A stretch of DNA of 64,000 nucleotides from an uncultured Pelagibacteraceae bacterium (GTDB lineage: Bacteria; Pseudomonadota; Alphaproteobacteria; Pelagibacterales; Pelagibacteraceae), in assembly GCA_902573585.1 (NCBI GenBank), contig CACGKH010000003.1, positions 1-64,000 of the forward strand, given 5' to 3'. Positions within the stretch are counted from its first letter, which is position 1. Every line of letters begins with the position of its first letter. Of the stretch, positions 2,952 to 5,651 are shown one piece after another. A model generated the notes under the pieces. That model did no database searches, was not told the origin of the DNA, and saw only the letters and a list, made by a program, of their open reading frames with translations. The translations under genes and the position numbers were made by a program.

Positions 2952-3853
2952 GACAACCAAAATTATTAGATTATTTATTACTTACATTCTTAGCACTAAT
3001 TTGGGCTTCAGCTTTTTTTAACATCAAGATTGCAACTTACTCATTTGGACCTGTCACGATAGCTTTTTTAAGAGTTTTTTTTGGAGCAATTCCAGTTTTA
3101 TTACTTTGTTATTATAAAAAAATTAAAATTGAAGCTTTTTCAAAAGATTGGCATTGGTTTGCTATGATAGGTTTTATTAATTTGGTTGCACCTTTTTTTT
3201 TAATTGCATATGGAGTTAAGTCTGTCCAAAGTAATTTAGCAGCTATTTTAATGTCAACTACCACTTTAAGCTCAACAATTCTTGGTCATTTTTATACAAA
3301 AAATGAAAAATTTAATCTTTTAAGAACTATTGGAGTATTAATTGGATTTTCAGGAATAGTTTATTTATTTTCAGACAATATATTAATTAATGAAAATAAC
3401 TTTAGCTCTGCATTACTTATTGTTTTAGGATCCACATGTTATGTAATTGGTGGAGTACTGACACTAAAGATAAGTAAGAAAAAAAATGAAAATGTTACTG
3501 GTTCAATATTGATATGGGCAACAATTATTTTAATTCCTCTAGTGAGTTTTATTGAACAACCTTGGGAACTAACACCAAGATTAGACTCTACTATTTCTGT
3601 AATCTATCTTGGATTGGTTTCGACTGGGATTGCTTGGCTTTTGAGATTCAGGATTTTAATTAATAATGGTTTAATCTTCCAATCACAAGTTTCATATTTA
3701 ATACCAATTTTTGGAACCATTTTAGGTTATATTTTTTTAAAAGAATTAGTTACATTTAAATTATTTTTATCCCTAGTAGCCGTATGTATTGGAATTTACA
3801 TTGTAAGAATAGCAGGTTATAAAAAATTTACTTCAGTTTTGAAAAAGCATTAA
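2948..3853 (+). CDS. EamA/DMT-superfamily transporter
   Basis: About 10 TM segments; N-terminal LLLTFLALIWASAFF. Confidence 0.9.
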   Translation: MRQPKLLDYLLLTFLALIWASAFFNIKIATYSFGPVTIAFLRVFFGAIPVLLLCYYKKIKIEAFSKDWHWFAMIGFINLVAPFFLIAYGVKSVQSNLAAILMSTTTLSSTILGHFYTKNEKFNLLRTIGVLIGFSGIVYLFSDNILINENNFSSALLIVLGSTCYVIGGVLTLKISKKKNENVTGSILIWATIILIPLVSFIEQPWELTPRLDSTISVIYLGLVSTGIAWLLRFRILINNGLIFQSQVSYLIPIFGTILGYIFLKELVTFKLFLSLVAVCIGIYIVRIAGYKKFTSVLKKH

Positions 3854-4736
3854 TATGTGAAGGTCTGGTTTCACAACAACCTCCAAGAATAGTCGCACCC
3901 GCATTTTTAAATTTTTTTGCAAATTCAAACATTTTTTCTGGAGTTAAATCCTCACGAACACCAAGAAATTCATTGGGATTTCCAGTTTTACTTCCGTTAA
4001 AAGCACCTGTGTAATTTGGTTTTGGATTAGTCTTTATAAAGCCATTAAGTTTAAAACCAAATGGAATACCTAAATTTTTTATTTCATTTAAATTTAACTC
4101 ATAATTTTCAGGAGAAACACAAGAAAGCATAATTCCTAATAATTTTTCATGTTTAATTTTAGATACTATTTCAGAAATTTTTTCACCACTCGGTAAGTTT
4201 GTACCTTCTGAAATATGAGCTCCAATTAAATATGGTTTATTAAATTGAGAAATACTCTCTATAGCAATTTTGAACTCTTTTACGCTACTTAAAACATCTA
4301 AATAAAAAAAATCCACATAAGGGTTTAGTAATTCAGCTTGAGTTTTAAAATTTTCAGTAATCTCAGTATCTGGTCTTGTGTCAGCTTCATAAGTTAAATA
4401 CTGAGGAGGTAATCCCCCGGCAACTAAAATATTTGGAAATAATTCTTTTGCTTTTTGTGCAATTTCACCAGCTTTTTTATTTAAATATTCAAACTTATCC
4501 TCAACATTATTGTCTCTTAATCTTATTTTTCTGGTTGTAAATGTAGTTGTAACAATAACCTCAGCTCCAGCTTTAATAAAATCAATATGTGTATCTAATA
4601 AAAGTTGATGATATTTTTCTTGAAGAAGTGCATTTGCACTCCATAAAGTTCCATTAGGTGCCATTCCTCTTGCTAGAAGTTCTTGACCCATTCCTCCATC
4701 CAATATTCTAGTTTGTTTAAAAAAATTTAAGTTCAT
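3828..4736 (-). CDS. Homocysteine S-methyltransferase family protein (BhmT-like)
   Basis: Zn-binding GGCCETRPSHI; GGMGQELLARG start; downstream of a SAM riboswitch. Confidence 0.9.
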   Translation of the reverse strand: MNLNFFKQTRILDGGMGQELLARGMAPNGTLWSANALLQEKYHQLLLDTHIDFIKAGAEVIVTTTFTTRKIRLRDNNVEDKFEYLNKKAGEIAQKAKELFPNILVAGGLPPQYLTYEADTRPDTEITENFKTQAELLNPYVDFFYLDVLSSVKEFKIAIESISQFNKPYLIGAHISEGTNLPSGEKISEIVSKIKHEKLLGIMLSCVSPENYELNLNEIKNLGIPFGFKLNGFIKTNPKPNYTGAFNGSKTGNPNEFLGVREDLTPEKMFEFAKKFKNAGATILGGCCETRPSHINAFSKLK

Positions 4737-4741
4737 TTTAT

Positions 4742-4800
4742 CCTCGCTTTTTTAGTGCTTTAGCTTAATGCTAGGCGCACAATACAGTTCAAATACCTGC
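4742..4800 (-). promoter_or_regulatory. SAM-V riboswitch
   Basis: Minus-strand sequence GCAGGTATTTGAACTGTATTGTGCGCCTAGCATTAAGCTAAAGCACTAAAAAAGCGAGG; nested pairings GTGC/GCAC and TAGC/GCTA, conserved TTTGAACTGTATTG core, CTAAAAAAG tail running into an SD-like GCGAGG just before the ATG. Confidence 0.85.
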
Positions 4801-4822
4801 AGATCGATTATGTTGGGAATTT

Positions 4823-4866
4823 CCATTTTAGCAGTTATTGCCCGCAATAGGATCAAATCGGCAACT
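4823..4866 (-). promoter_or_regulatory. SAM-II riboswitch
   Basis: Minus-strand GTTGCCGATTTGATCCTATTGCGGGCAATAACTGCTAAAATGG: TTGCC/GGCAA stem, GATTTgAtCCtATTGC loop, GCTAAAatGG pseudoknot strand (GG pairs with CC), as in the SAM-II consensus. Confidence 0.78.
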
Positions 4867-4904
4867 TAAATATATTTTAAAAATTTTAATAAATCAATTG
4901 AAAT

Positions 4905-5651
4905 TTAAATAAATATTTTAAAAGCCATCCTTAAAGCTACAAAAATAACTAGCAATGATGTTATCAAAGCTAGCATCCTATTTGAAAAAATTTTAAGATT
5001 TAAATAATTTCCAATAAAGCCACCAATGAAAACAGTTAAAAATAAAGGCCAGTATAATGTAATTTCTTTTAAAACAATTTCTTTTGTAAATTGACCTACT
5101 ATTCCTGAAAGAGAGTTAATAAGTATGAACAACGATGCAGTAGTTGCAATATTTTTAGGTTTATCCGCTTTTAATAAAAAAAGTATAGGGCTTAAGAAAA
5201 TTCCCCCACCAATACCAACTATACCAGAGATTAATCCTAAAATCGAACCTAAAAAGATTGAAATGAAAACATTAATTTTTTTGACAATTATTTCCTTGTC
5301 CCCATAAGATTTATTATTTGCTAATAATAGTAATCCTGCAAAGGATAGAACTAAAAATAGCAATATTTCAAATATTTCTTTATTAATTACTAATGTTCCA
5401 CCTAAAAAAGCTAAAGGAATTGACCCAATTAAAAATGGTATCAACAATTTAAAGTTATGATTTCCTGCTTTAACATAATTAAAAGAATTGCCTGAAACAA
5501 CAATTATATTACATAGTAAAGCTATGACTGGAAAAATGTAATAAGGAATATCCCAAATTATCAATAAAGCTAGATAAGTTGAACCCCCACCAAAACCAAT
5601 ACTTGAATATAAAATAGCTGTTATTAGAAATGAAATTGATAATATAATCAT
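4905..5651 (-). CDS. TauE/SafE (TSUP) family permease
   Basis: Glycine-rich SSIGFGGGSTYLALL and SGIVGIGGGIFLSPIL repeats, about 8 TM segments. Confidence 0.9.
   Translation of the reverse strand: MIILSISFLITAILYSSIGFGGGSTYLALLIIWDIPYYIFPVIALLCNIIVVSGNSFNYVKAGNHNFKLLIPFLIGSIPLAFLGGTLVINKEIFEILLFLVLSFAGLLLLANNKSYGDKEIIVKKINVFISIFLGSILGLISGIVGIGGGIFLSPILFLLKADKPKNIATTASLFILINSLSGIVGQFTKEIVLKEITLYWPLFLTVFIGGFIGNYLNLKIFSNRMLALITSLLVIFVALRMAFKIFI

Follow-up and report, generated by a model that had tools for sequence, protein, structure and literature searches.

The mmuM leader and its proximal SAM-V riboswitch

The window (the whole 64,000-nt stretch of DNA that was analysed) carries on its minus strand an intergenic leader that separates a TauE-like gene from a gene encoding a homocysteine S-methyltransferase of the mmuM type, the nearest solved chain to the gene product being 5dml, itself a homocysteine S-methyltransferase (E 7e-14). 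The features of the locus, with the grounds for each, are the following:

Between 4905-5651 (TauE-like gene) and 3828-4736 (methyltransferase gene), minus strand: mmuM leader, intergenic (direct sequence reading)
4892..4897, minus strand: putative -35 box TTGATT (9 of 12 consensus matches together with TATATT, 17-nt spacer)
4869..4874, minus strand: putative -10 box TATATT, ending 6 nt upstream of P1
About 4817..4864, minus strand: candidate compact SAM-II-type aptamer, distal (signature match, conservation, sub-threshold Rfam scores, likeness to the bhmT SAM-II)
4860..4862, minus strand: P1 5' strand GCC, pairing with 4842-4840; the window copy extends to UUGCC, 4864-4860
4843..4859, minus strand: L1, GAUUUGAUCCUAUUGCG, containing GAUUU and AUU, which are SAM-contact motifs of SAM-II (invariant columns; contacts according to PMC11508383)
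4840..4842, minus strand: P1 3' strand GGC (P1 pairing in the alignment)
4822..4832, minus strand: P2 3' strand, GCUAAAAUGGA (GC with 4845-4844, GGA with UCC 4852-4850)
4799..4821, minus strand: linker of 23 nt with no intrinsic terminator (complementary to the distal 5' strand in related leaders)
4742..4807, minus strand: SAM-V riboswitch aptamer, proximal (RF01826)
4742..4745, minus strand: Shine-Dalgarno-like GAGG at the 3' edge of SAM-V (sequence; occlusion model of PMC6061858)
3828..4736, minus strand: mmuM-type homocysteine S-methyltransferase, 302 aa, GGCC motif (PF02574, E 2.6e-50), with the start codon ATG at 4736

The proximal element is an unambiguous SAM-V aptamer and a full member of its class, RF01826 (SAM_V) matching 4807-4742 over its full length and scoring 66.8 bits (cut-off 41 bits; E 1e-8 for the 64 kb). 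It overlaps the Shine-Dalgarno sequence of a methionine-cycle gene, and the published model, in which the SAM-V aptamer occludes the Shine-Dalgarno (PMC6061858), fits the window leader. The first-pass annotation had placed two SAM aptamer-like folds in series in this minus-strand leader, the proximal one a SAM-V, ahead of a homocysteine S-methyltransferase gene in a Pelagibacter-like organism, and all of this is confirmed. A homologue search with the gene covered 101 genomes, made up of the window's own genome and its relatives, as well as GTDB genomes; the GTDB relatives were nearly all Pelagibacteraceae. A phage origin of the leader was considered and rejected, as no phage match turned up. 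The same annotation had drawn an SD-like GCGAGG at the SAM-V 3' edge; the site is there, but the Shine-Dalgarno itself is GAGG.

A compact SAM-II-type element at the predicted 5' end

Upstream of SAM-V, the window holds a complete SAM-II core that a standard Rfam search misses. A loose signature built from the Rfam SAM-II consensus (GATTT-N4-12-TTGC-N6-25-GCTAAA) has a single match in the 64 kb, at 4859-4827, against 0.11 occurrences expected from shuffles, and as the element lies a short way upstream of SAM-V, a chance match becomes far less likely still. Searching 4500-5200 with E-values up to 10 returned no SAM-II family, and a search restricted to 91 bases gave, on the right strand and at the right place, 13.5 bits for RF01726 (SAM-II) and 12.4 bits for RF00521 (SAM_alpha), the cut-offs being 44 and 36 bits. 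The bhmT SAM-II of HTCC1062, for which SAM binding has been published (PMC5069961, PMC11508383), served as positive control and also fell below both cut-offs, with 13.1 and 11.5 bits. The Rfam threshold therefore does not separate true from false SAM-II in this clade, and Rfam was rejected as the only judge of membership. The model search suggested by the first-pass annotation succeeded for SAM-V, and its sub-threshold outcome for SAM-II is not decisive given the bhmT control.

In the RF00521 consensus P1 measures about 5-6 bp and L3 about 11 nt, and the canonical SAM-II loci of the same bacterial order have similar dimensions (P1 5-6 bp, L3 about 11 nt); the element falls short of both. In the compact form only three pairs of P1, GCC/GGC, are conserved and L3 mostly measures 5-8 nt; the L3 of the window copy has 7 nt, which shrinks to 5 nt when the A-U pairs specific to this copy are counted as lengthening P1. 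The SAM-II core recognised in the first reading of the sequence is thus present, but the 5-bp TTGCC/GGCAA stem assigned to it is not conserved beyond those three pairs.

An alignment of 44 distinct homologous distal elements comprises about 56 columns, 26 of which are invariant and 10 nearly so. The pocket motifs GAUUU, UAUUGC and GCUAAAA are the same in all 44 leaders, and no variation was seen in the nucleotides GAUUU, AUU and UAA that form the SAM-II pocket, judging from the contacts described in PMC11508383. Because the pocket is invariant, the compact element would be expected to bind SAM. It is very unlikely that it represents a SAM-II derivative tuned to another ligand, such as SAH or methionine, in a two-input gate: its P1 and L3 are unusually short, and its retention beside a standard SAM-V would be redundant if both sensed one ligand, but the motifs for SAM contact have been kept unaltered and do not vary, and in its loop and 3' strand the element is very like the SAM-V next to it.

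The helices P1 and P2, arranged as an H-type pseudoknot, are paired in 97.5% of cells across 50 representative leaders, compared with 96.2% in shuffles and at most 54% when the strands are slid. P1 alone is paired in 98.7% of cells, with a change from G-C to A-U in two sequences, while helices 2 and 3 of P2 reach 96% and 98%, with a change from U-A to A-U in upper P2, again in two sequences. Two-sided changes in P1 and P2 amount to four cells, a number that slid controls (+1 and beyond) also match, so that covariation, thin because the sequence hardly varies, is supportive rather than conclusive. In other genera P1 has changed to GUC/GAC and GCU/AGC, which are compensatory when read by eye.

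The position of the element relative to the promoter is also constrained. The -35/-10 pattern of the window is weak taken alone (one found against 1.8 expected in shuffles). Among the relatives, the spacing between the best -10-like hexamer and GCC is exactly 6 nt in 52 of 62 mmuM and 72 of 106 metY leaders, the latter with a TG extension of the -10 box in which T and G each occur in 92%. This spacing indicates that P1 should form the 5' end of the mRNA, with the window transcript expected to start at about 4863-4861, and a start at P1 would limit the length that P1 can reach. The conserved stretch begins 6 nt past the -10 box, as it would if it were a feature of the DNA (an initially transcribed sequence or an operator) resembling SAM-II by accident. 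Such an explanation is barely credible, considering that the match spans all the separated blocks of the SAM-II core, that P1 shows compensatory changes and that the genes downstream of the element (metX, metY and mmuM) belong to SAM and methionine metabolism.

Most of the closer homologues carry the distal element ahead of SAM-V, and six mmuM leaders have kept it where SAM-V is absent. These six, together with the near invariance of the element across dozens of species, make it highly improbable that it is a non-functional SAM-II relic, a view to which the broken P1 of one copy (L070) lends something, as does the lack of response to SAM of the SAM-II domain in the full-length bhmT tandem RNA, reported in PMC11508383. 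A covariance model of the compact element (R1) has matches in 138 of the 398 genomes available for the order; as R1 does not recognise canonical long-P1 SAM-II loci, this figure refers to the compact form alone. In a catalogue of 193 distinct elements, which includes a few long-P1 SAM-II and was counted by simple sequence signatures, tandems of compact element and SAM-V precede metY in 105 cases and mmuM in 56. For a further 14 leaders with SAM-V the signatures assigned no gene, and in four metX leaders the compact element stands alone. There are also SAM-V leaders that have no compact element. The window's own genome contains a second compact SAM-II and SAM-V tandem, located before metY (G000:C9:4942-5063, L179).

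A linker lacking an intrinsic terminator

Candidatus Pelagibacter ubique has a described tandem of SAM-II and SAM-V in front of bhmT (PMC2704228, PMC9481103, PMC11508383), and this tandem shares with the window leader the upstream SAM-II core, the SAM-V over the Shine-Dalgarno and the methionine gene downstream. However, the bhmT tandem has a P1 of at least 5 bp, a long L3 and a linker containing an intrinsic terminator with poly-U, whereas the window tandem has the three conserved P1 pairs, an L3 of 5-7 nt and its 23-nt linker without a terminator. In HTCC1062, the published coordinates of the bhmT leader hold a longer SAM-II, the terminator ACCACCGCTTTAGACAGGTGGTTTTTTTTT and then SAM-V, and according to PMC9481103 a terminator always followed SAM-II in the 120 tandems of the original set.

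No terminator-like site was found in the window between 4600 and 5000. Among distinct tandem linkers, T-runs of at least five occur in 0 of 55 for mmuM and 9 of 105 for metY, and the linkers span only about 23-33 nt. These observations weigh against the already described bi-mechanism, in which SAM-II would terminate transcription (here in a Rho-dependent or otherwise non-intrinsic way) and SAM-V would block translation. The bhmT tandem is of such a kind (PMC9481103), and in one metY leader from another genus of the family (L305, G431:C10:2423-2477) the compact SAM-II is followed by a GC-rich, terminator-like hairpin carrying a T-run and then by SAM-V, but for the window leader this explanation is unlikely. 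The first-pass annotation had anticipated a further case of the known tandem, in which one element would act on transcription and the other on translation; neither expectation is supported for this terminatorless leader upstream of mmuM. The L305 leader may represent a stage between bhmT-type tandems and those that have no terminator.

What the metY linkers do contain is a conserved UCGG, present in 104 of 105 distinct tandem linkers, adjoining SAM-V P1 and complementary to the distal CCGA; in the exceptional linker, UUGG of the UUGGU or UUAGU match still permits pairing with CCGA. UCGG was absent from all 10 SAM-V leaders examined that have no compact element. This complementarity, and the absence of UCGG where the compact element is missing, suggest strand exchange rather than termination. 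On the alignment, the helix between distal 5' strand and linker is paired in 90.6% of cells, against at most 47% when slid, with one pair undergoing a two-sided change (C-G to U-A, in two sequences). Twelve rows break its C-G pair, most of them mmuM leaders that pair in another register, UUGAU with AUCAA.

Partition-function folds gave for metY a 5'-strand/linker pairing of 0.80 compared with 0.42 for shuffled linkers (rank of at most 0.1 in 22 of 26) and for mmuM 0.47 compared with 0.24 (rank of at most 0.1 in 8 of 16), ranks that are not probabilities, since related sequences are not independent. A simple duplex test was weaker, with mean z-scores of -1.5 for metY and -1.0 for mmuM against -0.5 and 0.05 for a control strand. 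In the window leader itself the pairing is not predicted (P 0.01 against 0.21 for shuffled linkers), and the linker duplex of this copy does not exceed chance. Nested folding of the window leader does no better than shuffles (z -0.08, nested folds only) and is uninformative, which is no surprise with pseudoknots. An anti-aptamer pairing was consequently rejected as a universal rule, as it fails in the window copy and in several mmuM leaders; it is retained, as a candidate interaction, for metY leaders and mmuM leaders of the HTCC1062 type. Its plausibility is increased by the bhmT tandem, where the linker silences the SAM-II domain according to PMC11508383.

A proposed two-aptamer SAM sensor and its relatives

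With moderate confidence, the mmuM leader is interpreted as a two-aptamer SAM sensor composed of a compact 5' SAM-II and a SAM-V, with no intrinsic terminator and with predicted strand exchange in relatives. In the proposed mechanism, the compact SAM-II-type H-pseudoknot would form the 5' end of the mRNA and the SAM-V pseudoknot would cover the Shine-Dalgarno, such that at high SAM the SAM-V closes over GAGG and translation is blocked. The compact aptamer would sense SAM too, driving no intrinsic terminator. In metY and HTCC1062-type mmuM leaders, the distal 5' strand GCCGAUUUGAU could alternatively pair with the linker adjoining SAM-V P1, and ligand binding would then decide which of the two, aptamer or linker, holds this strand. 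The likely outcome would be a sharper or two-point response to SAM at the level of translation. Both the strand exchange by the compact element and its effect on SAM-V are predictions drawn from the sequences.

The wider distribution of this arrangement can be followed in HTCC1062. The R1 matches of one genome (G106), at 732852-732908 and 1005759-1005815, fall inside the SAM-V regions listed for HTCC1062 before mmuM (732778-732938) and metY (1005679-1005890) in Table 1 of PMC2704228, and G106 is taken to be HTCC1062 on this basis. Both leaders contain the compact element and SAM-V. In the published accounts consulted they are given as SAM-V only, SAM-II being given for HTCC1062 only before bhmT and metX (PMC2704228 Table 1; PMC5069961), and work on the metY SAM-V, covering its affinity and crystal structure, has treated it as a translational switch standing alone (PMC6061858). 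The literature searched, a scope that did not extend to the original 2009 SAM-V paper, yielded no description of the metY/mmuM arrangement with the compact element. Compact SAM-II plus SAM-V is a widespread variant of the terminator-type tandem, and apparently an unannotated one. A broader proposal can be put forward tentatively: that SAR11 bacteria possess a second, overlooked tandem SAM switch, even in front of the crystallised metY SAM-V, in which a minimal SAM-II at the 5' end and the linker compete for one strand, coupling two aptamers for the same ligand without a transcription terminator. Should the compact element bind SAM, the metY leaders of many Pelagibacter genomes, HTCC1062 included, would be dual sensors, and dose-response conclusions reached with SAM-V alone would need revision.

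Among the known classes, the SAM-II families (RF00521, RF01726) share with the compact element the GAUUU, UUGC and GCUAAA core and the H-pseudoknot topology, the compact element differing in its scores below both cut-offs, its shorter P1 and L3 and its predicted location, right where the transcript begins. Translational SAM-II switches, such as those of metX (PMC6061858) and of S. meliloti metA (PMC9373788), likewise have no intrinsic terminator but are solitary, in contrast to the window element with its second SAM aptamer downstream. SAM-V (RF01826; PMC6061858) has in common with the compact element AUUUGA..C..UAUUG and CUAAAA, while the lower P2 of the latter has 2 bp instead of 4 bp and there is no Shine-Dalgarno at its 3' end. 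Within the window, comparison of 4859-4826 with 4793-4750 shows the compact L1 and 3' strand to be closely similar to those of SAM-V (AUUUGA.C.UAUUG, CUAAAA). A duplication of the compact SAM-II may have been the origin of SAM-V.

Other genera of the family have the compact element in front of metX, with a covarying hairpin just ahead of the start codon, the variants of this hairpin being AAATCGC/GCGATTT, AACCATC/GATGGTT and AAACTATAC/GTATAGTTT. Six such metX leaders (L301, L302, L300, L303, L308 and L310) have a solitary compact SAM-II followed immediately by the hairpin, which, to judge from its position and covariation, is likely a translational expression platform. The metX of the window's genome is preceded by a canonical SAM-II (G000:C2:71932-72006, L003) that scores 29.2 bits, below the RF00521 cut-off; as similar sub-threshold matches appear in many Pelagibacter genomes, this cut-off seems too strict for SAR11. 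Finally, four metY leaders of genus g7 (L309, L317, L318 and L320) contain a SAM-II-like element with the P1 GUC/GAC and, nearby downstream, an AGTCGA repeat.
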